From contig CAKRFY010000001.1 of assembly GCA_934320895.1 (NCBI GenBank), positions 62,001 to 126,000 of the forward strand: a DNA stretch of 64,000 bases, given 5' to 3'. The notes below the pieces were generated by a model. It searched no databases and had not been told where the DNA came from. It worked only from the letters and a program-made list of their open reading frames with translations. The stretch's first letter is position 1. Each line of letters opens with the position of its first letter. This document shows, piece by piece, positions 9,536 to 45,712 of this stretch. The translations under genes were made by a program, and so were the position numbers. The stretch comes from an uncultured Lachnospiraceae bacterium. Its GTDB lineage: Bacteria > Bacillota > Clostridia > Lachnospirales > Lachnospiraceae.

Positions 9536-12355
9536 TCATATAAAATAATTTTTATAACAAACAAATCCTGCCCAATAATATGGAGAACTAAATATCTGCT
9601 GTTGTGAATCAAGTTTTAAAAAATTTTCCAGAACACTAGACGGAATACTACTTACAGCATTTTTTTCCATAATATATCTATATATTTCATTAGCTGTCAT
9701 CAATCGAATTTTCTCTTTTGCATTTAACAATGATTCTTCAACCGATTTTTTTTGATTCCATTCCTCATAAAACAGTTGCATCAATACAGCAGTTGCAAAA
9801 TCATCGACCTCCCATAAAGATGAAATTATATATTGAACGCCTGCTGCTGCAAAAGCAATATGTAAACCTGCCAGATGATTTGTTTGATCTAACAAACTAT
9901 TTCCAGAATTACATGCCGACAAAACTACAAGTTCCGTTCCATTTAAATCTATTCTACTTATCTCATCAGCAGTTAATATTCCATTGCCATATACATTTTG
10001 CTCAACTCCCGAATCCAGCCAGTCAATAATTCCTGCAAAAGATAATGCACTTGAATACCATACATTATCTACACCTTCTCTCTCTGAAAATCCATGTGTA
10101 GCAATATGAAACAAGCGATATCCTGAATGAACACATCTTTTTACAGCTCTCCTACCAACGTAACACTCTTTTCCATATATATCCGCAATACACCTTGCTT
10201 CATATTCGCTAAAAGGCAATGGTACAAGATGCGCACCTCTTTTTCCGGAAATAATATCATCAGTATATTTTTCTTTCAGACTGTAGCTTGGATTTCCAAT
10301 AATACAACCATCAGTCAATGCAGATACATGACCTTTATAAAACACTTCCCTTGCAGTCTGCATATATACTACTTTGCACTTCTGAAGTATTGGATTTTGC
10401 GAAAGTATTATATCAAAAGGAATATTAGCGTCAAATGTATGCGGACAAATATAAATTGTGTCTATATCTTCAATATTGTCCATACACTTTCCAAATATTT
10501 CATTATATAGTTTCGCAGCTTTTTTCTTATATTTACGATGCGGAGCTTTTAGTGTTTCAATAAAATCTTTTAATATTTCTAATACTTCATGTGCATTTCC
10601 ATTTTTATAATAATGCAACTGACTGTCCTTTTCTTTTATCCAGATAAATGTTTCCAAAACATTATAATCATTGAAACTGGTAATTTGTTCTAATGATTTT
10701 AAATGCAGATCTGCCTGACTGAAAAAAATATCTATCACCACAGAATTATCTGGTATTGCTCTCTTAAATTGATGAACAAAATAGTATGGTATTATCTTTT
10801 TCCTTCCGTATTTTTCCGAAAATGTGTTTTCCAATTCTGTCAATCGAATTTTCAATGTTTGAATTTCTTCCCAATTAACAGTCATAGAAAGTAAACTGCC
10901 TGATTTTTGTGCTATTTTATCTTTTATAGCATTTACTTCTTCCAAAATATCTTTTAATTCTGTATGATCTGATATTTTCAAATCCCGTTGCTGCACAACT
11001 GTTGGCAAAGGATTTTTATAATTTAGCAAATACTCAAATTTCTGTTCTTCTGACACATTTTCCATCAATGAAGAATATGCAAATAAAAACGGGATTTCGA
11101 TATTAAAAAGTGCCTGTAGCATTCTGTCATTATCTATATAATATTGACAACTATGAATATTTTTATACAATTGTATCATTAAATGTTCTGCACATTTTTT
11201 TAATTTAGAAACTCTCTGAAGTTGTCCAAATTCCCTTAAAAGAATAAGCATTTGTGATACATATGAACCAAATTCCACTTCTGGACATCCAAACTTAGCA
11301 TATCTCTCATATATATCATCCAAATTTTTTTCATAATCCTCTCCTGACTTTTTGGCAATTTTATAAGCAACCAGGTCTAGCGATGAAGCTTCTGATATAA
11401 ACTCTGACCTAAAATCCTTTCTATTTTTTCTTTGCTCCATTAAATCTTTAACTCTATCATAAACAATACTGTTTACCGTCACATTACATTTCTCTGCCAA
11501 ATCTATATATTCCACATACAAATTCATAAGATATGTATCACTACTCTTATCATACATAATTCCCTTTTCAAATGCTTTATTCATAACCCGTAATGCTAAT
11601 CTGTTATTTCCCTGTATTGATAATACATTTACATATCCAAATATCATCCTGTGTATTTCTTCAATGCTACGGACTTTTATTTCCTCTTTTAAATATTTCA
11701 CATATAAAAATCTTCCCAAATCAATTGCACGATCGTTCTGCCCAGCACCAGTATATATATACATAAGCTGATTTAAAAAAAATAACTTCTGCTCATCTAT
11801 TATTTCTTCATATTCAGTCATATCCAAAACAATTGTTCCATAACGGATAGCTATTGCATAATTTCCCTGCCTTACATAATATGCAGCTGCCAGACCGGTT
11901 GCTGAAATATATGACTTTTTTTCCCATTCTTTGCTAATACTATTACTTTGTAGTAAATCTAAAACTTCTTTAAAACATTCTTCAAATATTACATTCTTCT
12001 TTCCATCAATAGAAACTTCCATCATATTTATTAATATATTCACATAGATGTCTTTAATCTGCTCAAACCAATCAGGTGACATGCAATCCCTTGCAATATC
12101 CCTCAACCTACTATATATGTTGATGCATTGCCGTTTATCATAATCCATATCATACAAATAATGATATCTTGTATGATTAAACTCCACAATCCAGTTCATA
12201 AGCTGATACGGCTTTATCTGACATACAAGTTCCATTGCTTTATCAATAAGCGGAATTATATTTTCAATGCTCCCACATTTCTCCGCCGCAATTGCTTTAT
12301 CATTCAACCTCCCCACTTCATCAAGCACCTTTTTATACTTGTTTTTTCTAAACAT
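9536..12355 (-). CDS. TPR-like CHAT-domain caspase-like protease
   Basis: A 939-residue protein. Residues 1 to about 600 are helical and repeat-like, resembling degenerate TPRs. The C-terminal 300 residues are a CHAT domain (Caspase HetF Associated with TPRs), a clan CD cysteine peptidase. The catalytic pair is His at about 754 in LFHIATHGFSE and Cys at about 815 in LVVLSACNSG, followed by the conserved HLAGLHIAFAAAGVQYIISSL-type segment and WEVDD. CHAT proteases act in programmed-death and conflict systems, where a sensor releases proteolysis. I chose the ATG at 12355, behind AAGGGAG. It is the last gene of the kinase cluster, as expected for an effector. Its substrate is unknown. Confidence 0.88.
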   Translation of the reverse strand: MFRKNKYKKVLDEVGRLNDKAIAAEKCGSIENIIPLIDKAMELVCQIKPYQLMNWIVEFNHTRYHYLYDMDYDKRQCINIYSRLRDIARDCMSPDWFEQIKDIYVNILINMMEVSIDGKKNVIFEECFKEVLDLLQSNSISKEWEKKSYISATGLAAAYYVRQGNYAIAIRYGTIVLDMTEYEEIIDEQKLFFLNQLMYIYTGAGQNDRAIDLGRFLYVKYLKEEIKVRSIEEIHRMIFGYVNVLSIQGNNRLALRVMNKAFEKGIMYDKSSDTYLMNLYVEYIDLAEKCNVTVNSIVYDRVKDLMEQRKNRKDFRSEFISEASSLDLVAYKIAKKSGEDYEKNLDDIYERYAKFGCPEVEFGSYVSQMLILLREFGQLQRVSKLKKCAEHLMIQLYKNIHSCQYYIDNDRMLQALFNIEIPFLFAYSSLMENVSEEQKFEYLLNYKNPLPTVVQQRDLKISDHTELKDILEEVNAIKDKIAQKSGSLLSMTVNWEEIQTLKIRLTELENTFSEKYGRKKIIPYYFVHQFKRAIPDNSVVIDIFFSQADLHLKSLEQITSFNDYNVLETFIWIKEKDSQLHYYKNGNAHEVLEILKDFIETLKAPHRKYKKKAAKLYNEIFGKCMDNIEDIDTIYICPHTFDANIPFDIILSQNPILQKCKVVYMQTAREVFYKGHVSALTDGCIIGNPSYSLKEKYTDDIISGKRGAHLVPLPFSEYEARCIADIYGKECYVGRRAVKRCVHSGYRLFHIATHGFSEREGVDNVWYSSALSFAGIIDWLDSGVEQNVYGNGILTADEISRIDLNGTELVVLSACNSGNSLLDQTNHLAGLHIAFAAAGVQYIISSLWEVDDFATAVLMQLFYEEWNQKKSVEESLLNAKEKIRLMTANEIYRYIMEKNAVSSIPSSVLENFLKLDSQQQIFSSPYYWAGFVCYKNYFI

Positions 12356-12378
12356 ATAATCTCCCTTTTCTTTAAGCA

Positions 12379-12654
12379 TCAATCTTCAAATACAAATATG
12401 TCACTATTCCTTCTTTTAAATTCTTCGTATAAAATATACAATAGATCTTCATCTTCTACAGGAATATAATATGTTTCTCCATCATGTATGTGTTCCTGTG
12501 CAATGTAAATTTCTTCACATTCAGGTTCGTCTACTGGAAATGCAAAAATATATTTGCAGTTTTTATATTCAAAGCCATCGACAACTTCAATTTCAAAGTC
12601 CTCATCATCCATAGATAAAACTAGATAATCCCCTGCCAGCTCCTCAATTTTCAT
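12379..12654 (-). CDS. DUF1292-like small acidic protein
   Basis: A 91-residue strongly acidic protein similar in pattern to DUF1292 (PF06949), a small beta-rich family with no defined role. The segment CKYIFAFPVDE and the C-terminal helix LLYILYEEFKRRN fit. The start overlaps the stop of the preceding zinc-finger gene as ATGA, so translation is coupled. A partner role within the CHAT/kinase cluster is inferred from position. Confidence 0.55.
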   Translation of the reverse strand: MKIEELAGDYLVLSMDDEDFEIEVVDGFEYKNCKYIFAFPVDEPECEEIYIAQEHIHDGETYYIPVEDEDLLYILYEEFKRRNSDIFVFED

Positions 12655-13247
12655 GATAACCTACCTCTTATCACTAATTCATATCTCTCAGTACTTACTT
12701 TAACAGCCACTTCTAAACATTCTTCAAGTTCATTATAATAAAATGGAACTATCTGTTCTGTGCCATTCTCTATAAAAACCAGTTCATATTTGCCTTCATT
12801 AAAATATTCATCGTCCAGTCTGACGATTACTTTATCCTCAGATATTGTAATCGTAGAATACTCTGACATCTTATTTATAAATACATTTTCTTTGCTTTCT
12901 TTTCCTCTTGTTACCGCTAACTGAGTATAAGGTATAAAATCCCATAACTTCTTAGCCGCATTTTCAAGAGCATCATTTACAAGTACTTTTACCTTTCCAG
13001 CAATATTGCTTATTTGTAAATAAACATTTTCCTCCTGTTCTTCTTCAATACTCATCAATGCATCAAGCTCAAACAGTCCCTTATCTTCCAATTCATGTGC
13101 CGCAACAACACTAACACAGAACTCCTCGTAACATGGTTCACAATCCGTCATATGCATTTTAGCTTCAAGAAGCTCATCAGATAGTTTTTTATTTTTAAGA
13201 TAATAATATGTAAGCTTGTCAATCTGTTTTTTTGTTAAATGAGTCAT
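12651..13247 (-). CDS. Putative anti-sigma-factor-like zinc-finger protein
   Basis: A 198-residue protein. Its N-terminus is a short helical domain with the motif HMTDCEPCYEEF (H-x3-C-x2-C), which resembles the zinc-binding anti-sigma domain of ECF sigma regulators. No membrane helix follows; the C-terminal half (about 125-198) looks beta-rich. It lies 27 bp downstream of a sigma-region-2-like gene, as expected for a sigma/anti-sigma pair. A GGGGTGAAAGGA site precedes the ATG. The role is an inference from motif and neighbour. Confidence 0.55.
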   Translation of the reverse strand: MTHLTKKQIDKLTYYYLKNKKLSDELLEAKMHMTDCEPCYEEFCVSVVAAHELEDKGLFELDALMSIEEEQEENVYLQISNIAGKVKVLVNDALENAAKKLWDFIPYTQLAVTRGKESKENVFINKMSEYSTITISEDKVIVRLDDEYFNEGKYELVFIENGTEQIVPFYYNELEECLEVAVKVSTERYELVIRGRLS

Positions 13248-13274: not shown

Positions 13275-14324
13275 CTATCGTCTTAAATCAAGAATAATCT
13301 TTTCTGCCCGTCCAACTGCAAATCTACGGAACTCCTTATCCATACTCATCCGTTTTTTTGTATCTTCATACAAATGTTTACCTACCCTTGCCGACCAGTT
13401 TTTTATTCTCACAGTTTCAAATTCATCTGTAATGACAATATCTTCTATCTTTTTATCATCACACTTCTTTTTAAGAGCAGACAAATACTCTTTTCCCCAG
13501 CAAAATGGCAGACCAACAACTGGTTCCTGCTGATAAAGTCTTTCAAATTCCGCACTTAATTCTCCTGTTTTCTGAGCATTCATTGCATCCAAAGCCCAAT
13601 TTAAAAGAACAAAACTTTTTCTTCCAATATCACCACCTATTTTTCCATCACTGTACCACGAATTTCCATTTCCTCTTGCAGACATAATATTTATATTTTT
13701 AAGAAAATCAGGATTCTGACTTTCTTTAAACATCAATGGTAATAATGATGCATAACAATATGTAACTATCTGATACGGAACCTCTTTATTCTCGATCAAT
13801 GCCTGTCTAAAAAAATCAATTACTTTTTTATCTGAATATGCTTCTTCTTTCTCTATAAGATTTGATAACATATCTGTTGAAATATTTTCATTTCGTTTAT
13901 TTTTTGCATTGATTCTTTCAATATCGTCAGAATTTTCATTCTCAAACTGTGTTTTTTGTGAATATATTTTGTTTTTGTTTATCATATGCAGATATGCGTG
14001 ATAAACCGTGTTTTGCAATAAACCGTATATTCCTTGCGTTAAAACAGATTCCTGCAATCCCCTTATACACAGTTTAAAAAAATCCTCACATGCCTGGTCC
14101 AAGATTGCATCAGCATAGTCCGGCGACCATGCTGATTTTTTAGCATAATACAAAGCTAAATCATAAAATTTGTAGTATATCACACGGCAAACAACATCCA
14201 TTGCCTCTGAATCATTTCGCATAATGGACTCGGCTAAATTATTTACAACCTCCACCACATCTTCTCCATCATGAATTACCATTAAATATCTCTCACGATA
14301 AAAAGCTTTTGAATCCTGTTTCAT
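13275..14324 (-). CDS. Divergent sigma-factor-like protein
   Basis: A 349-residue cytoplasmic protein. Residues about 30-130 resemble region 2 of an ECF sigma factor: a helix like FYDLALYYAKKS, an acidic stretch around YADAILDQACEDFFKL, then a segment like GIYGLLQNTVYHAYLHM. No clear region 4 helix-turn-helix is visible, and the C-terminal 200 residues are not recognised. It could be a repurposed sigma-fold protein. AAAGGAGC precedes the ATG. The neighbouring zinc-finger protein supports a sigma/anti-sigma reading. Confidence 0.5.
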   Translation of the reverse strand: MKQDSKAFYRERYLMVIHDGEDVVEVVNNLAESIMRNDSEAMDVVCRVIYYKFYDLALYYAKKSAWSPDYADAILDQACEDFFKLCIRGLQESVLTQGIYGLLQNTVYHAYLHMINKNKIYSQKTQFENENSDDIERINAKNKRNENISTDMLSNLIEKEEAYSDKKVIDFFRQALIENKEVPYQIVTYCYASLLPLMFKESQNPDFLKNINIMSARGNGNSWYSDGKIGGDIGRKSFVLLNWALDAMNAQKTGELSAEFERLYQQEPVVGLPFCWGKEYLSALKKKCDDKKIEDIVITDEFETVRIKNWSARVGKHLYEDTKKRMSMDKEFRRFAVGRAEKIILDLRR

Positions 14325-14350: not shown

Positions 14351-14884
14351 CTACCTTCTATAATATCCATCAAATTGCTTGATGCCAATATACTCTAGCA
14401 TATCAATTATTTTATTATTATCCATCTTATCTAAAACAACAATTGCATCACTGTCACTAAACTTTGGAAATACTATAAAAATATCATTGCCATAGTATCC
14501 ATAACCATAGCAAACACTTTTTCCCCACTTTTCTTTTTTTAATGTTCTAGGATATACAACCATTCCATCTATATTAAAAAAAGCTTCATAACCATATGCA
14601 ACAATATAATTCTCATAAATTTCAATTTTTGAATGCCATGTATTAATATGTTTTCTAATTTTAAAAATTGCAAAAACTAAACCAATTAATAAAATTACAA
14701 TATAAGCCCAATGCATATTCGAATCAACTTCTATATAATGACTTATAATAAAGTAAAAAACAATATAAATAAGAACATCCCAAAATATATACCGTATTTT
14801 TCCTTTTTCCTTATATAACAATTTACCTGGATTTTGTTCCTGATCTCCACTTATCAACAAATCATATGGATCATTTCCTCTCAC
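14351..14884 (-). CDS. PH-like membrane protein, paralogue of the 25.5-kb gene
   Basis: A 177-residue protein with a soluble N-terminus, two membrane helices (about 35-55 and 60-78) and a C-terminal beta-rich domain that looks like a bacterial PH or YdbT-type fold. It aligns along its length with the protein at 25535-26104: the pattern GKLLY-E-x-GK, two helices, IKIY-NYVIA-G, and a final helix ending in IGIK are shared. The start is a GTG at 14884 behind GTGGAG. It lies between the kinase and the sigma-like gene. Function unknown. Confidence 0.6.
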   Translation of the reverse strand: MRGNDPYDLLISGDQEQNPGKLLYKEKGKIRYIFWDVLIYIVFYFIISHYIEVDSNMHWAYIVILLIGLVFAIFKIRKHINTWHSKIEIYENYIVAYGYEAFFNIDGMVVYPRTLKKEKWGKSVCYGYGYYGNDIFIVFPKFSDSDAIVVLDKMDNNKIIDMLEYIGIKQFDGYYRR

Positions 14885-19020: not shown

Positions 19021-19764
19021 TTAGTCTTTTTTCTCTACAAGCACTACTGTTTCATTGTCATGTCCGCCTTTATCATGTGCACATTCAATTATCTGCTCTG
19101 CCTTTTCTTTCAAAGATATATCTCTTGAAAGAATATTTTCCAATTCTTCAATATCAATATAGTCGTGTATTCCATCCGTACAAAGCATAAGGATATCGTT
19201 ATAACTAAAATTCTCCCTGTGTTCCGTAACGGTTATCCAATCAGTTGAAAAGCCTGCTGCGCCTAAACATCTGGTAATGATATTTTTCTCCGGATAATCT
19301 TTTGCAGTTTCTTCATTCAAAATTCCCATATCCAGTAATTCCTGAACCTTAGAATGATCTCTTGTCAATTGACGTAGAAAACCGCCCCTAAATCTATATA
19401 ACCTGCTGTTTCCAACATTATATGAGATTATCTGGCTTCCCAATATTCCAACCGCACACAATGTAGTGCTTAACATATTTCCATAATTATTTTTTACAAG
19501 ACCAACATTTGCCTGATTTATACATTGAATTATTTCTTCTGCTTTCCTCGGATTACACTCTTCCAGACAATACAGTACATAACGGGATGCCAGCTCACTG
19601 TTTTCAATAGAACCAACGCCATCTGCCACTGCGAACAATCCTCCCTCTATCAGAGACTCACCCTCAAAGATTCCATCATGTATCACTGAATGCTTTAGCA
19701 TCGCAGCATCATCATTTGTTTCATGAACTAATCCTCTATCAACAACACCAACATATCTCAACAT
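19021..19764 (-). CDS. PP2C-family Ser/Thr phosphatase
   Basis: A 247-residue metal-dependent phosphatase that should reverse the neighbouring kinase's phosphorylations. Metal and phosphate motifs are present: VGVVDRGLVHETNDDA at the N-terminus, GGLFAVADGVGS near residue 45, ILMLCTDGIHDYI near 195 and GGHDNETVVLV at the C-terminus. Length and motif order are typical of bacterial PPM phosphatases such as PrpC/Stp. It ends about 85 bp before the kinase gene and starts 5 bp after the AAA+ gene. Confidence 0.92.
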   Translation of the reverse strand: MLRYVGVVDRGLVHETNDDAAMLKHSVIHDGIFEGESLIEGGLFAVADGVGSIENSELASRYVLYCLEECNPRKAEEIIQCINQANVGLVKNNYGNMLSTTLCAVGILGSQIISYNVGNSRLYRFRGGFLRQLTRDHSKVQELLDMGILNEETAKDYPEKNIITRCLGAAGFSTDWITVTEHRENFSYNDILMLCTDGIHDYIDIEELENILSRDISLKEKAEQIIECAHDKGGHDNETVVLVEKKD

Positions 19765-19769
19765 CTATA

Positions 19770-21686
19770 TCACCCACAAATCAATTTTGCTATGCCATCT
19801 GTTTCTGAAATATCCGTAATACGGACTACGCTGCCCTTTTCAATATGGTTATCAAACACATAATTAGATAGCGGCGTGATGAAATACTCCTCCACCACAT
19901 TTCCAACACCTCGTCCACCTTCCTCAAGATTTCCGAGAACCTTTTCTTCTATTTTCTCCCATACATTTTCATTTAACTCAATCTCAATTGTCTGCGTTTC
20001 TTTAATCTTTCCACATATCTTATTTATCTGTGATCTCATAATTTCTTTCGCAGCATCTGGCTGAATGAAATTAAATACTATCAGATTTTTTCCAATCCTG
20101 TTTAATACCTCCGGTTTTCCTTTTTGATGAAAATAATCCTGTATTCCCTCTGTCACTGTACTTTCAACCTGCTCATAAGGCATATTGATGTCTACCACCC
20201 GTGTTTTTACACCTCCAACATCCTTATAAATTCCGAGATTGCTTGTAAATACTATCAGGGCTTCTGAAAAATATACAGTATTTCCCTGTCCGTCTGTCAT
20301 TCTTCCGTCCTCAAGAATTTGTAAAAATTTATCCCATATACTTGGCGATGCTTTTTCAATCTCATCAAATAGCAACAATGAAAAAGGATGTTCCTTAATT
20401 ACATTTGTCAACTGACCTCCTGCTTCATAACCAACATATCCCGGAGGTGCTCCAAACAGCTTTTGTGCCGAATGGCTTTCTGCATATTCACTCATATCAA
20501 ATCTTCTACATGCACTTTCATCACCAAATAAAAGCTCTGCCAAGGATTTCGCCAGTTCTGTCTTTCCTGTACCTGTTGGTCCTGCAAAAAATAAAATTCC
20601 CTTAGGCTTTGAATTAGACGAATGTTGCAGTCCCGATAAACCTGTTTTTGCTCTTTTTATTACAGATATACTTTTCTGGACAGCCAAATCCTGTCCTTTT
20701 ACCCTGCGTTTAATCTCCTGTTCTGCATTTTCAATCTGACCTCTTTCTATCGCATCCCACGGATTTTCCTTAATTCCATACTTATATAATGCCGTTACAT
20801 CTAAAAGACTTCTCTCTCCCTCCGGTTGAATCATCTTTAATTCCATTATTCCTTTAAGGTCAAGTATTTTCATTCCATCAGTTATATCTATAAAATGGTC
20901 TATTCTTTTTGCCTGCTCATCCGGTGTCATATCACTGTTTTTCTCCTCAAAGAAATTGCGGTACAAATTAACATATTCCAGACGAACATACTTATCCGGT
21001 GTCGGCAAAATGATGTTCTTAACATTTGGATTATCAAGATAGAACCAAGCCGGGATATCATTTACCTTATCAACGATCATTATCAGCAGATTTTGTCTCT
21101 TTATCTTATCCTCATTTCCAACATTTCTCCTTGCATTCATTGACGCATAGAGCAGATTCATAAAAATCGCACGTTCCGCATCCTGCATCCGTGTAGGATC
21201 TGCAAGCGTCTGGGATGCAAAATTCACACAGAAAACAGATGGATTTCTATTTTCAATCAATATTTTTTTAATAAATTCACTTGCCTTTAATGTATCACAC
21301 ATTATGGCACTGTCTATCTGACCATTCACCCTTATATCATCCTGTGTTTCTTCCATATAGTGATATGCTTCCAAACACTGTATATCCGAGTCTGATAATT
21401 GAGATTTATTTTCTTCAAATTCAGCCATTATTTCAGAAAAAACAGAAACAGCACTTTTTTGTTTATTTCTGTTATAAAATCCATTTACCGGATCATAAAA
21501 GCACACACTATATCCGTTTGTAGATAATATTTTGTGAATATAATTGTCTAATTTCAAAAAATTAGCGCACTTTTCATTATTATCATCTAATACAGGATAT
21601 TCATCATAAATATTTCCTTCTATTACAATGCAGTTCTTTATCTTTGTAAAACATTCAAATTCACGAATCCATTTAGGCATCTTCAT
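19770..21686 (-). CDS. ClpB/ClpA-type AAA+ ATPase with degenerate N-terminal ATPase-like domain
   Basis: A 638-residue protein. The C-terminal half (about 305-638) is a Clp/Hsp100 D2 module: a GQDLAVQKSISVIKRAK lead-in, Walker A GPTGTGKTELAKSL, pore-loop segment GAPPGYVGYEAGG, Walker B LLLFDEIEKA, and the ClpB D2-small domain with the GGRGV motif. The N-terminal 300 residues look like a second, inactive P-loop domain (IVIEGNIYDEYP and LLIMIVDKVNDIP strands) without Walker A. There is no ClpP-binding or chaperone N-domain, so it probably remodels a partner in this cluster. AGGAG precedes the start. Confidence 0.85.
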   Translation of the reverse strand: MKMPKWIREFECFTKIKNCIVIEGNIYDEYPVLDDNNEKCANFLKLDNYIHKILSTNGYSVCFYDPVNGFYNRNKQKSAVSVFSEIMAEFEENKSQLSDSDIQCLEAYHYMEETQDDIRVNGQIDSAIMCDTLKASEFIKKILIENRNPSVFCVNFASQTLADPTRMQDAERAIFMNLLYASMNARRNVGNEDKIKRQNLLIMIVDKVNDIPAWFYLDNPNVKNIILPTPDKYVRLEYVNLYRNFFEEKNSDMTPDEQAKRIDHFIDITDGMKILDLKGIMELKMIQPEGERSLLDVTALYKYGIKENPWDAIERGQIENAEQEIKRRVKGQDLAVQKSISVIKRAKTGLSGLQHSSNSKPKGILFFAGPTGTGKTELAKSLAELLFGDESACRRFDMSEYAESHSAQKLFGAPPGYVGYEAGGQLTNVIKEHPFSLLLFDEIEKASPSIWDKFLQILEDGRMTDGQGNTVYFSEALIVFTSNLGIYKDVGGVKTRVVDINMPYEQVESTVTEGIQDYFHQKGKPEVLNRIGKNLIVFNFIQPDAAKEIMRSQINKICGKIKETQTIEIELNENVWEKIEEKVLGNLEEGGRGVGNVVEEYFITPLSNYVFDNHIEKGSVVRITDISETDGIAKLICG

Positions 21687-21689
21687 AAT

Positions 21690-22262
21690 TTACACACTCC
21701 TCTCATTGTTATGTATTCCTATTGACATCAATTCATCTTTCCAAAAAACATTTTGAATCTGCCGCCCTTTATCCATATATTTTTTATATTTTCCTCTTAA
21801 ATTTTCTTTCAGAAAATACATCTTCTGATTTGTTGATGCTATAAGTGCTGTTTTGTTGTCATTTTTTTCATCAATGTATTCACCTGATATAAGTACACCC
21901 ATATACTGAAAACATTCCTGCACATCACTATCTGGCATTTCCAATAATTCCTCATATGTATATCCTGAAAAAACAAGAATATCCTCAATTCTTGATGATA
22001 TTTCTCGCAAGAATTTTTTTAATTCACTAGGCTGTGCAAACGGTTCCCCACCACTTATAGTAATCCCATCTATACGCTTCGTATCAATTTTTAAAATCAT
22101 TTTTTCCAATTGTTGCACGGATATATCTTTTGTCTTGTCAAACATCCGCAATTCCGGATTTGCACATTTTTTGCACCTTTTGTGACACCCTATCATCCAC
22201 ATTGCCAGTCTGTTTCCAGGACCAAGAGCAGTCACGGGAAATAATAATCTGTCTACCTGCAA
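21690..22262 (-). CDS. NrdG-like radical SAM (4Fe-4S) protein
   Basis: A 190-residue radical SAM protein of the short activase type. The iron-sulfur motif is GCHKRCKKCANP (C-x3-C-x2-C) and the SAM-binding strand is ISGGEPFAQP. It resembles ribonucleotide-reductase activases, but no NrdD or pyruvate formate-lyase gene is near; it sits between the FHA and AAA+ genes. It may install a glycyl radical or modify a protein of this system. The likely start is a TTG at 22262 behind GAGGTGAGGA, overlapping the FHA stop by 10 bp, so it is translationally coupled. Confidence 0.85.
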   Translation of the reverse strand: MQVDRLLFPVTALGPGNRLAMWMIGCHKRCKKCANPELRMFDKTKDISVQQLEKMILKIDTKRIDGITISGGEPFAQPSELKKFLREISSRIEDILVFSGYTYEELLEMPDSDVQECFQYMGVLISGEYIDEKNDNKTALIASTNQKMYFLKENLRGKYKKYMDKGRQIQNVFWKDELMSIGIHNNERSV

Positions 22263-23170
22263 ATCCTCACCTCGAAATTCTGGTCTGCCATAGTAACAAT
22301 ATCCTCATTAACAATACGCATTTTTCCCTGTCTCTTATAAATCATTTCTCCATTAATTCTTGTCCCATTTGTGCTGTTCCAATCCTCAATAAATGCACCT
22401 GTTCCGTCAACAACAATCATCGCATGCTGTCTGCCAATGTATCTTTTCTCACTAAAATAATCACTTTCAACATCACCCAGTTTTCCAAGAATATGCTTAC
22501 CTCTGCCTATTCTTATAACTTTTCCATCATTGTTATTGATAAATTCTATGTAACTGATTTCCTTAATTTCAGATTTATGTTCATCTGATTTTATTTCATG
22601 ACCGTAAGACTTTTGTGCAAAATTATCTGCCGAAGTATTATTTTCCGGCTTGTCCACCCTTTCCGACTCATTATCTTTCTTCTGTTCATTACCCCTTTCT
22701 GTCTCATCAGCTTTTTCTGTTTCATCATCATTTTGTGATATGTACTCTGAATTCGGTGCATCCAACTGATTTTTTTCATCATTTTCTATATTATTTACTT
22801 CTTCTGAATTATTATTTTTTTCTTTATCCCCCGGTATGTTGTCTTTTTCTGCCACCTCATTTTTTGATTTTATTTTACCAATTTCCAAAAGGTATTCTTC
22901 TTCCGACAGAATACTGTCTTCTCCCACATTATTTATTCCAATCTCATAACATTCAGGACATGAATTTGGAATGCTCTCTTTATCCTCAAACGATATCCAT
23001 GCGCCACAGCTTCCACATCTTATATACCATTTTTCATTACTATTTTTATCTTCCATATCATTATCATCACTTATAGTTTCATATGGTTTATTACAATCTG
23101 GGCAAATAAATATTGTCATATTTTTTTCAATTCTTTTACAAGAACTGCAATATTGATATCCTCCAGCCAT
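22253..23170 (-). CDS. Twin zinc-ribbon FHA-domain protein
   Basis: A 305-residue cytoplasmic adaptor. Two zinc ribbons occupy the N-terminus (CSSC with CPDC, then CGSC with CPEC). A charged, Asn/Glu/Lys-rich disordered linker follows (about 105-200). The C-terminal FHA domain (about 210-305) has the phosphothreonine-binding pattern IGRGKHILG, IGRQHAMIV and the classic WNSTNGTRING. FHA domains bind phosphothreonine, so the kinase's KT repeats are a natural ligand. AAGGAGGA precedes the ATG. Confidence 0.88.
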   Translation of the reverse strand: MAGGYQYCSSCKRIEKNMTIFICPDCNKPYETISDDNDMEDKNSNEKWYIRCGSCGAWISFEDKESIPNSCPECYEIGINNVGEDSILSEEEYLLEIGKIKSKNEVAEKDNIPGDKEKNNNSEEVNNIENDEKNQLDAPNSEYISQNDDETEKADETERGNEQKKDNESERVDKPENNTSADNFAQKSYGHEIKSDEHKSEIKEISYIEFINNNDGKVIRIGRGKHILGKLGDVESDYFSEKRYIGRQHAMIVVDGTGAFIEDWNSTNGTRINGEMIYKRQGKMRIVNEDIVTMADQNFEVRICR

Positions 23171-23174: not shown

Positions 23175-24683
23175 TCATTCCTCCTTATCTACATATTGCA
23201 AACGCTGAACATTAGCATCATCAAACTGTCTCTCAGACTGAGATTCTGAAACAAGCTGCACATGACGGAAACTAAATCTTTTAGTTGATTTTCTGATATT
23301 CTTCTGACGCACAATATGTTCATTTGAAGTTTGCTCTGCTGAAACAGGCATTAAATTTTCATAATCAATATGAATACCTTTTTCTTGTAACTGCTCTCTT
23401 ATATTAGGATACAGGTCACAAAATGCTACCTGCTGACGAACCATCTCTTTTACCTCAGCATCCGTAGGCGGATTGTCACCCTCGCCAATAACATTCATCA
23501 TGATCATTCCATCACCAAATGAAGTTGATATTTTTTCACCCTTGTTACCTTCAAAAATAATTCTGGATACACTGTCAGCATTATGCAACTGATATGATGA
23601 TATACTTGCATATCCATAATCTTTCATAATATTTTCGATACTTTCCTCTATATAAATCCTTGATTCCTGTTTTTCTACCCTGCTCCTTAAGTTATTGACA
23701 CGCTCTCTTAATTCCTGAATCGTAAACTCTTCATAATTTGCACGCTTAACATCCAATGCCTGACAAAATGATATGTATTCGAGTTCTAAAGTAGTTCTTT
23801 CTTCCATCTCTGCATTTCTGGCAGCCACCAGCATTGAGACATATTTTTCCAGTCTTGCATACTTCATTCGCATCTGCTGCAAAACTGCTCTCTTACTTTT
23901 CATTGAATATGCCCTTTCACTTGTATCATTTATACATATCAAATCCTGCTTTAATTCATAAAGCAGACCTGTCTCTTTCTCTGTTAGATAATCAATTTTT
24001 GAATATTCTCTCATATCAGCCTGAAGCATCTCCAACAAAGCAAGTTCTTCTATTGTAAAAGGCAATGTTTCGGGATCAATATATTCATCCTTTTCAGGCA
24101 TAAACGGTATGTCTTTTCCATTTCCCATATATCTTTCTATGCGGACACTATTTATATTTACATTTTCTAATTTTTCCTTTTCTTTTTCTATTTTTTCCAT
24201 CCATTCCCTTGAACCACGGGCAGCCCGTTCATTTTCTTTTTTTATCTGTTTTATACCGGCATTAAATTCTTCAATATCTGCCTGCAGTCTTTTTAATACA
24301 TCAGATATTTCACTAAGAAATTCTTCTTTCCATTTTGGAATATCCTCAACTTTTTGAACTCCCATTTTTCTTAGCTGTTCAACACTATGAGATGCAATAA
24401 TCCCTAAATCAAATTTCTTTTTATTTACATTATCTGCATATTTTTCTTTTAATAATCTAACTTCCTGAAGTACTCCCGATGCATCTCCATAACCAATAGG
24501 TACAGTATTTAATGTTACATTTCCATAATTTTGTATCCATAAAGCCGTGTTTTCAATATCTTTGTTGATACCCTCGAACAAATCTGTGTAATAATTGTCC
24601 TTACCTATCTGTCTTAATCTCTCATTATTTCTTGCAATCACCTCTGGATCACAAGTTACTCCTACCATCTTAGGACCACTCAT
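23175..24683 (-). CDS. MSGPK-type coiled-coil protein
   Basis: A 502-residue soluble protein that starts MSGPK and is dominated by coiled coil (about 120-190 and 240-370; for example the EKIEKEKEKLE heptads). The N-terminal MSGPK recalls other poorly characterised bacterial coiled-coil proteins in conflict-type gene clusters; this resemblance is from memory and not a family assignment. The C-terminal 120 residues contain a beta-rich segment and a basic tail. GGAGGA precedes the ATG, and it lies 4 bp before the FHA gene. Likely a structural or scaffold component. Confidence 0.6.
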   Translation of the reverse strand: MSGPKMVGVTCDPEVIARNNERLRQIGKDNYYTDLFEGINKDIENTALWIQNYGNVTLNTVPIGYGDASGVLQEVRLLKEKYADNVNKKKFDLGIIASHSVEQLRKMGVQKVEDIPKWKEEFLSEISDVLKRLQADIEEFNAGIKQIKKENERAARGSREWMEKIEKEKEKLENVNINSVRIERYMGNGKDIPFMPEKDEYIDPETLPFTIEELALLEMLQADMREYSKIDYLTEKETGLLYELKQDLICINDTSERAYSMKSKRAVLQQMRMKYARLEKYVSMLVAARNAEMEERTTLELEYISFCQALDVKRANYEEFTIQELRERVNNLRSRVEKQESRIYIEESIENIMKDYGYASISSYQLHNADSVSRIIFEGNKGEKISTSFGDGMIMMNVIGEGDNPPTDAEVKEMVRQQVAFCDLYPNIREQLQEKGIHIDYENLMPVSAEQTSNEHIVRQKNIRKSTKRFSFRHVQLVSESQSERQFDDANVQRLQYVDKEE

Positions 24684-24701: not shown

Positions 24702-25478
24702 CTATTTTTTGCTTTTTAAACTTCTCAATAAAATATATATGCCAATGATCATCACAATAACCGAGCCCCATGATTCCATTGTATCCACCGTTCCCTGCAA
24801 TATATTACATACACTTCCATATTGCGTTTCTAATACTATCATCAATACAAGAAACATCACCGACGATGTAATAGCAGTGGAAATTGCCCTGCCTATGGAT
24901 GTACTTGGAAACTGTTTAATTATGTAAGTCAGTATAAAACTATCTTTTTTTAGTCCTGTGATAAACGACAATAACAAAATCGGTGTATATAAAATACTTC
25001 CCCCGGTTATGATACATTCAACACAATATACGCACCACTTCATAACTATATTTTCTCTTACAAAGTCCATAAAGAAGCCATACACGATAATGCCGCCAAA
25101 AACAATCGCAATTCTTGATGTGATTTTTCCTACAAATCCCGCATTTCCAAATGTGAATGTATTAGATACCAAATTTATCATCAATGTCAATGTAACCAAC
25201 TCAACAAAATCTAACGCAAAAAAAGCAGGACTGTCTGCAAAATACTTTCTCACACTTCCTGCTCTTTCTACATTGTTTACCAATGGAAGTCCTGAATCAA
25301 AAATCCCACCTGTTGAAAAATCTTGATTAAACATCTCTAATACTAGAGCATATAAAATAACCGCTGTAATACAATTGACGATAATCGTATTTCCTTTTTC
25401 TTCCTCCCCTGTAATAGAACAGAGGACGCCAAACAGTATGGCTAGAATTATAATAAAAGATAATAAAGTTCCTATCAT
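24702..25478 (-). CDS. Multi-spanning membrane protein of unknown function
   Basis: A 258-residue hydrophobic protein with about seven predicted membrane helices, starting with LLSFIIILAILFGVL and ending with VIVMIIGIYILL and a basic tail. No family motif is recognised. The pattern of long helices with a short periplasmic Ser/Gly segment recalls channel-like subunits, but this is only a guess. It lies 18 bp upstream of the MSGPK gene and would give the kinase cluster a membrane component. Confidence 0.6.
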   Translation of the reverse strand: MIGTLLSFIIILAILFGVLCSITGEEEKGNTIIVNCITAVILYALVLEMFNQDFSTGGIFDSGLPLVNNVERAGSVRKYFADSPAFFALDFVELVTLTLMINLVSNTFTFGNAGFVGKITSRIAIVFGGIIVYGFFMDFVRENIVMKWCVYCVECIITGGSILYTPILLLSFITGLKKDSFILTYIIKQFPSTSIGRAISTAITSSVMFLVLMIVLETQYGSVCNILQGTVDTMESWGSVIVMIIGIYILLRSLKSKK

Positions 25479-25534
25479 ATCACTTATTTTTCTCCATATA
25501 TAATTTTTCTAACATAATTGTAAATAATATACTA

Positions 25535-26104
25535 TTATATATTTTTAATCCCTATATCTTCCAATACCCCAACAATCCTATCTGTATTTAATTTCTCTAT
25601 TATAACTTTATTTTGTAACTCTTGACCAAATTTTTCAGCAAATATTATTATTACATCTTTTCTCCCTGAAGAATCTTTACAAATCGAATACCCTTGTATA
25701 GTACTTTTTCCTCCCTCGTTACTTAACAATTTCTGTCTGTCAACTGTAATTCCATCATTATTTAATACAGCTCTTACTCCTTGCGCGATAACATAATTTT
25801 GATATATTTTAATATAATATTTACTAATTTTAATATCATTGCGAATTTTATTAAAATATATTATTCCACCGATTAATAAGATAACAAAATACCACCAATG
25901 TACTTCTATTTCTATATTCTTTAAATATAAATATCTTACCATTGCTATACATATGAACAATATAAGCAAATCGATTATCCAATAAATATTCTTACCATTT
26001 TCCTCATATAACAATTTACCGCTATTTTCTTTTTCCTTTTCGTCAATCGAATTTATATTTATACTCCTAAATATAGCTCTACGATCTAGCTTTTTCCTTT
26101 CCAT
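25535..26104 (-). CDS. PH-like membrane protein, paralogue of the 14.4-kb gene
   Basis: A 189-residue protein with a basic N-terminus, two membrane helices (about 45-62 and 72-88) and a C-terminal beta-rich domain. It shares layout and scattered identities with the protein at 14351-14884, including GKLLYEENGK, IKIYQNYVIAQG and the ending EDIGIK. AAAGGTGAA precedes the ATG. Two copies at opposite ends of one cluster suggest duplication, with possibly different partners. Confidence 0.6.
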   Translation of the reverse strand: MERKKLDRRAIFRSININSIDEKEKENSGKLLYEENGKNIYWIIDLLILFICIAMVRYLYLKNIEIEVHWWYFVILLIGGIIYFNKIRNDIKISKYYIKIYQNYVIAQGVRAVLNNDGITVDRQKLLSNEGGKSTIQGYSICKDSSGRKDVIIIFAEKFGQELQNKVIIEKLNTDRIVGVLEDIGIKNI

Positions 26105-26224
26105 CTAATTCACCTTTCACCCTTAATAACATACTATTATTGTAACTTCAATAACAAGCTATATTTTCATAAACTTATAAAAATATAGCTTGCTCTTAGA
26201 TACTACTTTTCACAATCAATTTGA

Positions 26225-26404
26225 CTAGCTATGATAATGAAAACAGCCATTTCTATCAGATGGTCTGTTATAGCCGCCATATCCACCTTCGCAGTATGGT
26301 TTTCCATCCCTTGTGTCATCCCAATTAGCATATCTGCAATCAGAACAATTTCCTTCAAAACAGCCTGCTGGAATTCTTATTGGACATTCAATTTTTTTAT
26401 CCAT
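26225..26404 (-). CDS. Cys-rich mini-protein
   Basis: A 59-residue protein with six cysteines (ECPI, AGCFEGNC, SDCRYA, PYCEGG, NGCFHYH) and a His-rich end, likely a small metal-binding or disulfide-knot protein. I chose the ATG at 26404 behind AAGGAAGGAG rather than an upstream ATG at 26452. It lies between the JAB peptidase gene and the PH-like membrane protein. It has no signal peptide. It could be a peptidase substrate or metal-site accessory; this is conjecture. Confidence 0.6.
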   Translation of the reverse strand: MDKKIECPIRIPAGCFEGNCSDCRYANWDDTRDGKPYCEGGYGGYNRPSDRNGCFHYHS

Positions 26405-26455
26405 TTTACTCACTCCTTCCTTATTTATTTCAAAAAACAATACAACAGACATTAC

Positions 26456-26887
26456 TTAAATAACGTAATAATTACATTGCATAATTTCCATTGTTTGATT
26501 TTTAATTGCATATAAAACCATTTCTTTTTCAGGAAAAACTATTATAGGAAAATACAAAACATCTACACTCGAAGGCATTACTCTCATTATTTTATACATA
26601 TACTCTATATCACCTTTTGAAAGAGTTCTAACACCAAAATAATGTGTATGAAATATCCCTAAAAAAACAATATTATTCTGATTCCATTTTCGTATCTGCT
26701 CATTAATAGCATCTACATCCGGCGTATATCTACACATATTTTTTTCTTTTAAAGCAGTCTTATCTATCCAATACTCTGTTATCTCTTCATTTTTTCCACC
26801 TATAATTCCTCCTGTTTCAGGTAATTCTTCTGGTAGTCTCTGCAACAAATTTAATAAATTTTTCTTTGTTATTTTTAATTCATACAT
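26456..26887 (-). CDS. JAB/MPN-domain (JAMM) metallopeptidase-like protein
   Basis: A 143-residue single-domain protein. The JAMM zinc motif is visible: an upstream Glu in PETGGIIGG, then GIFHTHYFGVRTLSKGD, which fits H-x-H-x7-S-x2-D. Prokaryotic JAB peptidases cleave ubiquitin-like tags or process small proteins and occur in conflict systems. No E1, E2 or ubiquitin-like gene is visible nearby, so its substrate may be the Cys-rich mini-protein or another cluster member. The ribosome binding site is weak. Confidence 0.75.
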   Translation of the reverse strand: MYELKITKKNLLNLLQRLPEELPETGGIIGGKNEEITEYWIDKTALKEKNMCRYTPDVDAINEQIRKWNQNNIVFLGIFHTHYFGVRTLSKGDIEYMYKIMRVMPSSVDVLYFPIIVFPEKEMVLYAIKNQTMEIMQCNYYVI

Positions 26888-26928
26888 ACTTACTATACTT
26901 TAAACTTTAATCCAAAACTTACAAATCA

Positions 26929-27201
26929 TTATTTACCATTAACAATATGACCTATTATTCTAATAACTGTATATGCCAGTACTGCAAGTGCAACTGCTGC
27001 AAATAAATACGCAAGTACACAACTAATACCTATTTTTGCTGCAACTGATCCAGGCTTTTTTTGATTCAGCCACATCTTGGCATTTTGAGGCAAACGACTA
27101 GCTAAAAAGCCTTCTCCCTTAGTCAATTGTTTCCAGCCACGCCAAAAACCATATACAAAAACTGCAACTACTATGATTTCAAAAATTGTTTCATCACTCA
27201 T
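26929..27201 (-). CDS. Small two-helix membrane protein, first gene of the cluster
   Basis: A 90-residue protein with two membrane helices (IFEIIVVAVFVYGFW and IGISCVLAYLFAAVALAVLAYTV, the latter long) joined by a basic loop. No family is recognised. I chose the ATG at 27201, which has GGAGG eight bases upstream; the in-frame ATG at 27225 overlaps no site. It is the first gene after the invertible switch. Confidence 0.6.
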   Translation of the reverse strand: MSDETIFEIIVVAVFVYGFWRGWKQLTKGEGFLASRLPQNAKMWLNQKKPGSVAAKIGISCVLAYLFAAVALAVLAYTVIRIIGHIVNGK

Positions 27202-27277
27202 TTCATACTTCCTCCATTTTTTCACATTCCATACACAAAAATTGTTTCTTTAAATAAATATCTCTTTTCCTTTTCTA

Positions 27278-27307
27278 TAATCCACATAATGATTATTATG
27301 TGATTTA
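27278..27307 (-). repeat. Left inverted repeat of the invertible segment
   Basis: A 30-bp sequence identical to the reverse complement of 27518-27547. Each repeat is itself an imperfect palindrome: 13-bp arms (TAATCCACATAAT and ATTATGTGATTTA) around a 4-bp centre GATT, two arm mismatches. That is the structure of a tyrosine recombinase crossover site. Confidence 0.9.
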
Positions 27308-27517
27308 AACCAACAAATATATATCATCATCACTCTCAATGCGTACAAAATACAAAAATCGACAAAACATATTGCATATCCTAATAAAAAGTTATATAAT
27401 TTGTTTACAAACACAAAATGAATTTAGCAGATAGTTTCATTTTAATTCTTATTAATGATAGTTTTTATGATTTACTTTTAAGAATCTATCAGATAATGTA
27501 AGAACTATGTACCATTC
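27308..27517. promoter_or_regulatory. Invertible promoter segment (present orientation: OFF)
   Basis: The 210 bp between the inverted repeats hold no gene. The strongest promoter is on the plus strand: TTGCAT at 27372-27377, 17 bp, then TATAAT at 27395-27400. As written it fires away from the cluster, into the 3' end of the recombinase gene as antisense. After inversion it would sit near 27425-27453 on the minus strand, about 215 bp before the first cluster start codon. No comparable promoter faces the cluster in this orientation. Confidence 0.8.
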
Positions 27518-27547
27518 TAAATCACATAATAATCATTATGTGGATTA
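27518..27547 (+). repeat. Right inverted repeat of the invertible segment
   Basis: Perfect 30-bp partner of the left repeat, in opposite orientation, ending five bases before the recombinase stop codon. Close coupling of a recombinase gene to its own site is typical of phase-variable switches. Confidence 0.9.
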
Positions 27548-27552
27548 GAAAT

Positions 27553-28398
27553 TTATATTATCAGGTTTAATTTTTCTATCCTCTTTTGATGTTCCATATA
27601 CGATTCTTTAAGATATATTCTCGTAGTTTCCACGCTGCTATGCCCTAATATATCAGCTAATTTAGAAATATCTTTATAAATAGAATAAAATGTTCTTGCA
27701 AATAAATGTCTTAAATTATGAGGAAATACCTTTTCTCTCGGTATATTAGCAATATCACACAACTTTTTCATCTCTCTCCAGATCCATGTCCTATCAACCG
27801 ATTTTCCTTTAGATGTTTTAAATACTATACCATACTGAATTTTCTGCTTCCTTATATATCTCAGTAACTTTACCTGCAAATCTCTGGGTATCAATATCAT
27901 TCTTTCTTTTCCCTTATTATATATAGTAGCTACTCCTCTTTTTACTGCCGATACAGTAATTGCAGATAACTCACTTACACGTATTCCGGTGGCACAGATT
28001 GTCTGTATTATCATTCCTATGCGAATCTTTCCGTTTCTCAAAGCAGTTTCTACTAATTTCTTATACTCCTGTTTTGACAATTCATTACTTTCTGGCATAA
28101 AAACTTCCTTTTGCAGTTTAAATGTTTTTACACGAAATTCGTACCACCCCATAAATTTAAAGAAACGATTTGCTGCAACCAAAAACGAATTTACACTGCT
28201 AGTTTTATAGTCATCGTTCTTTTTCAGATAATCTTTATATTGTATAGCTAATAGTTTTGTCATCTCTTTATTGTCAACAAACTCAACTAACTTTTTAAGA
28301 TCACATATATATTTCTGTATAGTTGCTTTACTTTTTTCCTGTTCATATAAATATTTTTTATATTCTTCCAACATTGCCATTGTTATTTTCTTCTCCAT
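27553..28398 (-). CDS. Tyrosine site-specific recombinase (switch invertase)
   Basis: A 281-residue XerC/D-type recombinase. The N-terminal SAM-like core-binding domain (about 5-85) includes an SKATIQKYICDLKK segment. The catalytic domain has Arg in CATGIRVSEL, the HxxR box in PHNLRHLFAR, His in LGHSSVETT and the nucleophile Tyr in TTRIYLKES. The start is the ATG at 28398 behind GGAGGG. It lies directly beside the 30-bp inverted repeats it most likely recombines. The short length and absence of phage genes argue against a prophage integrase. Confidence 0.9.
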   Translation of the reverse strand: MEKKITMAMLEEYKKYLYEQEKSKATIQKYICDLKKLVEFVDNKEMTKLLAIQYKDYLKKNDDYKTSSVNSFLVAANRFFKFMGWYEFRVKTFKLQKEVFMPESNELSKQEYKKLVETALRNGKIRIGMIIQTICATGIRVSELSAITVSAVKRGVATIYNKGKERMILIPRDLQVKLLRYIRKQKIQYGIVFKTSKGKSVDRTWIWREMKKLCDIANIPREKVFPHNLRHLFARTFYSIYKDISKLADILGHSSVETTRIYLKESYMEHQKRIEKLNLII

Positions 28399-28709
28399 AA
28401 TATCCCTCCATATAAATATACAAACTTTTTTAATCTGCTTTTTCATTAATCCTCTATTCGCATTATATTTTATAATAACTGTCATTAAAATTATAAATAT
28501 AATTACATTATATATTTATTGTTGCCCACATTGGGACAATTTTATTAGATGTCCATTATTATATTGTTATAAATATATTAGAAATATTAATCACATAATA
28601 ATTACAAAAAAAACGATCACAAAAGATAAAAACTTCAAAATTTTGTGACCGTTTCTTTATTTTATTTAATATTATATTGTTGACATTCTTTTTTTCATTT
28701 TGTATACCT
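28399..28709. other. AT-rich region upstream of the recombinase, with a recombinase half-site
   Basis: No gene is visible in this 311-bp stretch. It holds the recombinase promoter (not confidently located), a terminator at 28605-28652 for the gene to the right, and at 28589-28602 the 14-bp sequence AATCACATAATAAT, identical to half of the 30-bp switch repeat and in the same orientation as the right one. Confidence 0.5.
28605..28652 (-). terminator. Terminator after the PD-(D/E)XK transposase-family gene
   Basis: Arms ACGATCACAAAA (28613-28624) and TTTTGTGACCGT (28641-28652) pair with one G-U on the minus strand and are followed by a run of eight Ts. Confidence 0.7.
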
Positions 28710-29666
28710 TTATAGACATGCGGCTGATATTTTCTTAATGATTTCCCTCACATATTCCTCAGATTTTGACACCTTTTTAGCTATATCAGCCACTGACATG
28801 TTACAGTCTGTATATAATGTTTCTATCCTTCCTTCTTCCCTTCCTTCTTCCCTTCCTTCCGCTCTTCCTTCCGCTCTTCCTTCCACTCTTCCTTCCGCTC
28901 TTCCTTCCGCTATTCCTTTCCTCATTCCTCTCTTCATTGCTTGTTCTTCATTCGCCTTTATTTCTTCTTTAAAAAATTCTCTTAATACCTCATTCATAAT
29001 CCCATTACCTCCGTTCTTTATTTTTTTAAATAATTCTGAATTTGACGATACCATTATTCCTAATAATGAATCAACGCAATCTTTTTCGAAAGGCTTTTTT
29101 AATGCTAACGCTTCATCAAAAAACATATCTACAGTGCTTTCATTAAGACCTCTCTTCAATGTCTTTAAAAATATATGTTCTTTTTCTCCAACTTCTGCCG
29201 TGACTACAACTTGTGTTTTTATAAATCCGTCCTTTTCTACATAGTATATTCCACTTGTTTTTTCGTATACTTTGTAACTATTATCTGAAAACCATTTTAA
29301 AAGTTTTTCAGGCTTTCTCTCTCTTACAAATGTAATAGTCATACTGTTTATGTCTATATCACCTACATGCTTTTCACTGCTCTTATACAAGTATGCATAT
29401 GCCATTACTTTAAAATATGTATCTTCATTCAGCGCATCATTTTCTGATTTATATTCCATAATGTTATGCTTTTGAAAAATACGACCTATATCATTTGATA
29501 TTTCAAAATCATCTGATTTCTCCACTACAAGCAAATCTATAAGCAGCGGCTTTCGACTGAGCGGATATTCTCTATGAAATTCCAGCTTATCTGCATATTC
29601 TCTCAATTCCAGTTCCATTGCGGCACAAAATCCTAAATGCCATTGAATATCATTTTCTTTCCCCAT
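28710..29666 (-). CDS. PD-(D/E)XK nuclease family transposase-like protein (Rpn-like)
   Basis: A 318-residue protein of the PDDEXK_2/Rpn superfamily, linked to recombination-promoting nucleases. The nuclease core shows Asp in LLIDLLVVEK and ExK in IMEYKSEND. The C-terminal third carries an EGR repeat (units of AEGR/VEGR/EEGR, about residues 252-280) and a helix-turn-helix-like end (SVADIAKKVSKSEEYVREII). The gene stands alone, upstream of the recombinase, with its own terminator. Such genes are often multi-copy. Intactness suggests activity but mobility is unproven. Confidence 0.8.
   Translation of the reverse strand: MGKENDIQWHLGFCAAMELELREYADKLEFHREYPLSRKPLLIDLLVVEKSDDFEISNDIGRIFQKHNIMEYKSENDALNEDTYFKVMAYAYLYKSSEKHVGDIDINSMTITFVRERKPEKLLKWFSDNSYKVYEKTSGIYYVEKDGFIKTQVVVTAEVGEKEHIFLKTLKRGLNESTVDMFFDEALALKKPFEKDCVDSLLGIMVSSNSELFKKIKNGGNGIMNEVLREFFKEEIKANEEQAMKRGMRKGIAEGRAEGRVEGRAEGRAEGREEGREEGRIETLYTDCNMSVADIAKKVSKSEEYVREIIKKISAACL
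28832..28920. repeat. 12-bp in-frame tandem repeats
   Basis: About seven copies of a 12-bp unit of the type CTTCCTTCCGCT encode successive [AVE]EGR tetrapeptides in the transposase-like gene. Slippage would add or remove four residues without a frameshift. Confidence 0.8.
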
Positions 29667-45683: not shown

Positions 45684-45712
45684 ACTATACACCACTTTAC
45701 AACTTTTTTCAA
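45684..45712 (-). promoter_or_regulatory. Hybrid promoter at the insertion-element junction, driving hemC
   Basis: On the minus strand TTGAAA (45707-45712) inside the element and TATAGT (45684-45689) across its outer boundary are 17 bp apart. Transcription would enter the HemC-CobA-HemD gene about 65 bp on. The -10 joins the terminal repeat to host DNA, so this promoter would not have existed before insertion. Confidence 0.55.

Follow-up and report, generated by a model that had tools for sequence, protein, structure and literature searches.

A predicted invertible promoter switch with an adjoining tyrosine recombinase upstream of a kinase-AAA-CHAT gene cluster

The window analyzed here (the whole 64,000-nucleotide stretch of Lachnospiraceae DNA) very probably carries a switch in which a tyrosine recombinase inverts an adjacent 210-bp segment and so turns a likely promoter from an OFF orientation toward a cluster of kinase, AAA, and CHAT protease genes. 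Strand exchange would occur in or beside the 4-bp GATT spacer of the flanking repeats, the flip would point the predicted TTGCAT-17-TATAAT promoter at the cluster, and transcription would then proceed along the minus-strand genes from 27201 to 9536, leaving populations mostly OFF with ON minorities. One short DNA switch would in this way be tied to an uncharacterised multi-gene kinase/protease system, whose cost and function could be studied in natural ON and OFF cells.

Repeats, recombinase, and downstream genes in the window

A first-pass annotation had proposed perfect 30-bp inverted repeats around 210 bp, each a 13-4-13 pseudo-palindrome, with a recombinase gene ending five bases from one repeat and encoding a full Arg/HxxR/His/Tyr active site; each of these elements held up. 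The two repeats (Table 1) are 30 nt each, 100% complementary, and 210 nt apart, and their score of 30 compares with a best of 15 for comparable inverted repeats after the 64-kb window had been shuffled 100 times with dinucleotides preserved. Each repeat has the form TAATCCACATAAT-GATT-ATTATGTGATTTA, in which 11 of 13 arm positions agree, and the spacers of the pair (GATT and AATC) match in inverted register. The recombinase gene ends 5 nt from inverted repeat 2 and has an open reading frame; its product can be aligned to PDB chains of XerA, XerD, and a XerC-like protein and contains R140, K164, H227, R230, H253, and Y262, which we take to be the active-site residues of a tyrosine recombinase. 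At the level of sequence, the window has the adjacent intact site-specific recombinase by which an inverton is recognised. Searches of viral contigs recovered no exact copy of the repeat and no relative of the recombinase. Elsewhere in the window, the second-best inverted repeat (45687-46194, score 17) encloses a short ORF that weakly matches a DDE transposase.

Table 1. Features of the predicted switch and the downstream cluster (positions in the window)
Feature	Position	Strand	Remarks
Tyrosine recombinase	27553..28398	-	281 aa; PF00589 E=1.3e-20
Inverted repeat 2	27518..27547	+	Recombinase-proximal recombination site (predicted), spacer AATC
Invertible segment (predicted)	27308..27517	.	210 bp, without assigned gene
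Predicted promoter TTGCAT-17-TATAAT	27372..27400	+	Faces recombinase (OFF); family model only
Inverted repeat 1	27278..27307	+	Cluster-proximal recombination site (predicted), spacer GATT
Small membrane-like protein, first gene after switch	26929..27201	-	ATG 27201 behind GGAGG; GTG 27225 also possible
JAB-like metalloprotease, HxHx7SxxD	26456..26887	-	PF14464 E=2.3e-4 (below curated cut-off); PADLOC JAB E=2.1e-8
59-aa cysteine-rich ORF	26225..26404	-	No family found
Membrane-like protein	25535..26104	-	Resembles 14351-14884 by eye
Membrane-like protein	24702..25478	-	
Coiled-coil-like protein, MSGPK start	23175..24683	-	Relatives in 4/7 related clusters
FHA protein	22253..23170	-	PF00498 E=3.5e-10; zinc-ribbon-like start by eye
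Radical SAM activase-like protein	21690..22262	-	PF13353 E=1.4e-30
AAA+ ATPase (AAA_2, ClpB-like)	19770..21686	-	PF07724 E=2.7e-46
PP2C phosphatase	19021..19764	-	PF13672 E=6.8e-7
Ser/Thr kinase, 1349 aa	14908..18957	-	PF00069 E=9.2e-24
Membrane-like protein	14351..14884	-	
Predicted sigma-factor-like protein	13275..14324	-	N-terminal region-2-like fold (structure model)
Anti-sigma-like protein	12651..13247	-	HxxxCxxC (zf-HC2-like) motif by eye; no family found
DUF1292 protein	12379..12654	-	PF06949 E=3.8e-7
CHAT (caspase-like) protease	9536..12382	-	PF12770 E=3e-39

The cluster genes all run in the same direction on the minus strand, with a largest gap of 120 nt and other gaps of at most 63 nt, and no terminator-like site was called in 25400-28700; the genes from 27201 to 9536 are predicted to form one operon. 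The product of the first gene matched no family above cut-off, and HxHx7SxxD in the next is presumably the JAB-type motif. The structure model of the sigma-factor-like protein (mean pLDDT 52) is confident for approximately the first 120 residues only and had no Foldseek match at E≤0.001, the model of the anti-sigma-like protein was poor (mean pLDDT 37), and the CHAT protein had no match to PDB sequences at E≤0.1. In PADLOC, the kinase matched mad6 (E=7.6e-22) among others and the AAA protein matched PDC-M37B (E=3.8e-29); these matches run via shared domains, and so the cluster is not assigned to a named PADLOC system. The only CRISPR-type PADLOC match among 10 cluster proteins was a weak one, between the radical SAM protein and Cmr7 (E=0.0019). 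Judged by its gene content, the cluster may encode a conflict or stress circuit that is controlled by phosphorylation and has a CHAT protease as its endpoint, next to a sigma/anti-sigma-like pair. Further downstream, the window encodes a protein that combines ricin-type lectin repeats with a CHAP domain (7509-9077).

It is possible, though somewhat unlikely, that the switch governs the first genes only (membrane protein, JAB, and 59-aa ORF) and that the kinase-AAA-CHAT genes have their own promoter. The 120-nt gap between these two gene sets (26105-26224, from the 59-aa ORF to the next gene) contains a hairpin, the inverted repeat AGCAAGCTATATTTT/AAAATATAGCTTGTT, and internal promoter-like sites occur, including a weak one (score 9.0, spacing 19) before the 59-aa ORF. 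However, the hairpin lacks a T run and was not called as a terminator, no intergenic promoter of the cluster scores ≥10.2, and the genes on both sides of the gap share one direction and are otherwise closely spaced.

Related clusters elsewhere lend this alternative some further weight. Of 397 genomes sampled from the family to which a Lachnospiraceae MAG belongs, 8 have a related AAA gene (E≤1e-80), and seven of the eight places were examined, the eighth being a fragment at a contig end. By tblastn with the window proteins, radical SAM and AAA genes were present at all seven related loci, PP2C and kinase genes at five each, the coil protein at four, and FHA at two; JAB, sigma-like, and CHAT genes were recovered at none. 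All seven lack a relative of the window recombinase as well as a site pair of its kind, which indicates that such a cluster can exist without the switch and that the switch is an addition to it, seen once here. One of these loci (L019) has a phage-type integrase gene (12173-13159, PF00589 E=6.5e-30) just upstream of the coil gene of its related AAA/PP2C/kinase cluster. It was rejected as a second switch: the integrase had no match to the window recombinase at E≤1e-4, and no repeat pair convincingly encloses a segment of promoter size (the best is 16 nt at 81%, with 393 nt between). At another locus (L020, 4363-16429), PglZ (E=5e-269), GmrSD, and a restriction-type helicase with an HNH domain are encoded close to the related AAA/radical SAM/PP2C cluster, and L019 and L024 have ATPases matching mad8 and SspH models; these neighbours suggest a conflict or defence role for this type of cluster.

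Relatives of the recombinase and the direction of their predicted promoters

The preferred reading, a recombinase-linked promoter switch, was examined among relatives of the recombinase. A pattern-based scan of one genome per species (84,980 species) yielded two, 70 and 72% identical, both in Lachnospiraceae MAGs, one from roe deer rumen and the other from a sample named Lapin. A second search, of the 397 sampled genomes at a cut-off of E≤1e-66, yielded close relatives in 65 genomes at a minimum of 117 places, with at most six candidates scored per genome. The examined set comprised the best-scoring 70 of the 117 places, three further loci (L001, L002, and L005), and the window, for a total of 74 loci, with 47 places left out; the 73 relatives are 44-72% identical to the window recombinase.

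The first-pass annotation had also placed a promoter inside the segment, a claim that can be kept in part. A simple consensus scan called no promoter inside the segment (1 in the region versus 5.0 expected by chance), and the best site of the window segment under a generic matrix with shuffles reached p=0.13; by contrast, a family model trained without the window gave a single clear site (score 10.2, p=0.025; next best 3.0), which faces the recombinase. Toward the cluster, the same model called no promoter in the window (best 2.7, p=0.955). With its single good promoter directed at the recombinase rather than at the cluster, the window copy reads as the OFF state. Our confidence in this call is moderate, since the promoter lies 117 nt from the repeat it faces, beyond every one of the other 40 OFF loci (7-59 nt), and since its generic p value is 0.13. 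In two relatives (L002 and L009), a TTGCAT-17 promoter points the same way as in the window, 22 and 37 nt from the repeat. Inversion would place the −10 of the predicted window promoter 224 nt upstream of the ATG at 27201.

For the family as a whole, OFF was defined as a promoter toward the recombinase, and the model was rebuilt leaving out each test locus and its close kin. This leave-group-out model called 41 of 56 loci OFF and 5 ON, with 10 ambiguous; under the generic matrix with shuffles (p≤0.05), 31 of 55 loci had a promoter facing OFF and 7 had one facing ON. The called promoters lay 15-60 nt from the repeat faced in 42 of 46 cases, versus 28% in shuffled segments, for which OFF and ON calls were even (56 and 53 of 280). 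OFF promoters are antisense to the 3′ end of the recombinase gene, and the OFF bias in assemblies could reflect costly cargo or antisense feedback on the recombinase.

We consider it quite improbable that the segment inverts but that its orientation decides whether transcripts from the recombinase gene, or from a start further upstream, pass or stop, as in the leader switch of Clostridioides difficile cwpV (PMC2784873). The recombinase gene, being co-directional with the cluster and ending so near the repeat, is a possible source of read-through, and generic models score the window promoter as weak, in an unusual position; against this, the interval 25400-28700 has no called terminator-like site, and the promoters of relatives hold a fixed place relative to the repeats.

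Site position, spacers, and orientation across the family

Comparison among relatives strongly backs the recombinase-linked inversion that the first-pass annotation had proposed and that we prefer, through site pairs at the 3′ end of the gene, matched spacers, and one trio with a flipped segment. An inverted repeat scoring ≥15 was found near the recombinase stop codon in 55 of the 74 loci, window included; 19 had no repeat of that score near the gene end, 9 of them with <350 nt of flank. The pair was on the 3′ side of the gene in 53 of the 63 relatives with enough sequence and on the 5′ side in 1 of 70. Three loci have a second recombinase-like gene, with weak integrase matches, between segment and cargo (L002 1746-2504, L029 2-616, and L058 3798-4298); those of L029 and L058 are truncated by the end of the stretch, and that of L002 is followed by glycosyltransferase-like genes. 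Genome G255 has at least six site pairs beside such recombinases (L047, L066, L067, L072, L076, and L079), of which L067 and L072 have a common spacer and segments 89% identical, pointing to recent duplication.

The site core across loci is CATAAT-N4-ATTATG. Over 46 relatives (a set pre-filtered for matched spacers, with the window left out) the consensus is ACnACATAAT-NNNN-ATTATGTnGT, and 30 distinct spacers occur. In an unfiltered test, sites were picked by their 12 arm letters alone in 64 eligible loci, window included. Arm-only site pairs were found in 46 loci, the other 18 having no pair by the arm motif, and the spacers were identical in inverted register in all 46 pairs, versus an expected 1.5% for spacers drawn from different loci; one pair matches in direct register too, AATT being its own complement. 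Strand exchange in the spacer demands this pattern of identity within pairs and free variation from locus to locus. The matched spacers are the strongest evidence that these are recombination sites and that GATT/AATC in the window is a matched pair. Locus-specific, matched spacers also offer a handle on how several invertons per genome avoid mutual crossing over. The spacer as an address against crosstalk was itself rejected: in the filtered set without the window, sharing was seen in 1 of 28 locus pairs within a genome versus 23 of 1007 between genomes, a base rate too low for avoidance within genomes to be shown.

Opposite orientations were found in a trio of loci, L032 and L061 (both genome G363) and L044 (genome G048), whose recombinase genes and downstream DNA share one orientation and are 77-85% identical, with 77-81% between L032 and the other two. 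Only when inverted does the L032 segment align to those of L061 and L044 (inverted 25 and 28, same orientation −15 and −16; null scores −15.1 and −13.4, sd 4.7), and the L044 and L061 segments align directly (score 98). As read from these alignments, the trio shows inversion within the recombinase family, as distinct from the strain of the window. BLAST had proposed four inverted segment pairs, two of which were upheld by global alignment; the other two (L074-L087 and L064-L082) were rejected by it. The window segment is weakly alike to that of L002, in the same orientation (6.0; null −8.9, sd 6.1), and is not alignable to those of L009 and L010.

Very unlikely, in our estimation, is a locked relic, in which the recombinase formerly flipped the segment and no longer does: the window is seen in one orientation only, in a single assembly, but its repeats are still perfect over 30 bp, the recombinase gene is open with six catalytic residues kept, and both states are present among relatives. 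It is barely credible that no inversion takes place and that the repeats serve as operators at which the recombinase regulates transcription of its own gene or of the cluster: although an exact 14-nt copy of part of the repeat (AATCACATAATAAT) recurs upstream of the recombinase gene at 28589-28602, such a copy is no general feature (1 of 51 loci, the window alone), and spacers that match within pairs and diverge between loci are a signature of recombination and not of operators.

Cargo and comparison with known switches

Among relatives, the predicted recombinase-linked switch lies beside varied cargo. The cargo survey took one ORF per locus at 54 loci, the longest near the site and not always the first gene. 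Among the matches listed (25 of 56 families), Pfam hits included capsule and polysaccharide genes and choline-binding, LRR, and Ig-like surface proteins, along with single cases of GGDEF, HD, response regulator, PRD, and HTH domains. Given these mixed matches across the 54 cargo ORFs, regulatory cargo is a minority theme among relatives of the recombinase. Together these loci delineate a family of cis-linked invertons that can be recognised by sequence alone (65 of 397 genomes), with cargo ranging from capsule and surface genes to second-messenger enzymes.

The first-pass annotation had likened the switch to those of Bacteroides capsule loci and C. difficile. In Bacteroides, a serine invertase (Mpi) acting on many loci flips the capsule promoters, and their cargo is surface related. 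They resemble the window, with its predicted promoter, as invertible promoters before operons; because their enzyme is a serine invertase, the comparison holds for the logic only, and an Mpi-type switch was rejected for the window, where the adjacent enzyme is a tyrosine recombinase.

In C. difficile, pdcB (PMC9286219) and cmrRST (PMC8844915) each have an invertible element with a promoter upstream of signalling genes and are OFF in the reference genome, a layout shared by the window, in which the promoter is predicted. At pdcB the repeats are imperfect (19 bp) and no recombinase is assigned (PMC9286219), whereas the window has perfect repeats and a recombinase gene abutting one site; cmr requires RecV, which acts on several switches (PMC8844915), whereas the window recombinase gene adjoins its own site. 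The cwpV switch (PMC2784873) is similar to the window in having approximately 200 bp between inverted repeats and a XerC/XerD-family tyrosine recombinase; it differs in that its promoter is outside the segment (inside, by prediction, in the window), termination is the proposed mechanism, and recV is not at the switch. A RecV-type switch, with imperfect repeats of ~20 bp and a distant recombinase (PMC2784873), was rejected for the window, where the repeats are perfect over 30 bp and the recombinase gene is 5 nt away. The earlier contrast of a signalling cluster instead of a surface gene stands as to the signalling cluster but not as something unprecedented, in view of pdcB and cmrRST and of single cases of GGDEF, HD, and receiver-domain cargo in relatives.

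Read-supported invertons with nearby tyrosine recombinases have been reported in Clostridia (PMC11892184). Among them, inverton group 139 with invertase group 35 comprises 33 invertons, 32 from Clostridia, called from reads, and resembles the window as a short inverton near a tyrosine-type recombinase. That CATAAT-N4-ATTATG is the repeat motif of group 139 is a guess on our part, the motif being absent from the main text of that paper; the main text is also without the word “kinase,” whereas the window cargo includes a kinase. With published Clostridia invertons, and with pdcB and cmrRST signalling genes under invertible elements, the mechanism is already known and the cargo is the unusual part. 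A literature search, with subscription journals largely outside its scope, found no publication on an inverton upstream of a kinase/AAA/CHAT cluster.

For the CHAT and sigma-like part of the cargo only, a parallel exists in the type III-E CRISPR Craspase (Csx29-Csx30-CASP-sigma), whose CHAT protease gene is accompanied by genes for a sigma-like protein and a candidate inhibitor (PMC10028731). Unlike Craspase, the window cluster has no Cas7-11-sized unexplained ORF (the kinase is its longest), and its predicted CHAT/sigma-like pair lies within a kinase/PP2C/FHA/AAA cluster. A joint reading, unlikely to be right in its entirety, would be that of a phase-variable immune or cell-death circuit: the flip would give a minority of cells an armed CHAT protease, controlled by the kinase, PP2C, FHA, and AAA proteins and acting on the anti-sigma/sigma pair (a CRISPR-free parallel to Craspase), and the population would hedge between carrying and silencing a costly conflict system. 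The switch would come from a large family in Lachnospiraceae in which the CATAAT/ATTATG arm is common to all and every recombinase reads the 4-bp spacer specific to its locus.

Two further features were observed outside the switch and the cluster: 12-bp tandem repeats (28816-28947) within an ORF at 28710-29666, encoding E-G-R repeats, and a 6S RNA gene at 50929-51111.
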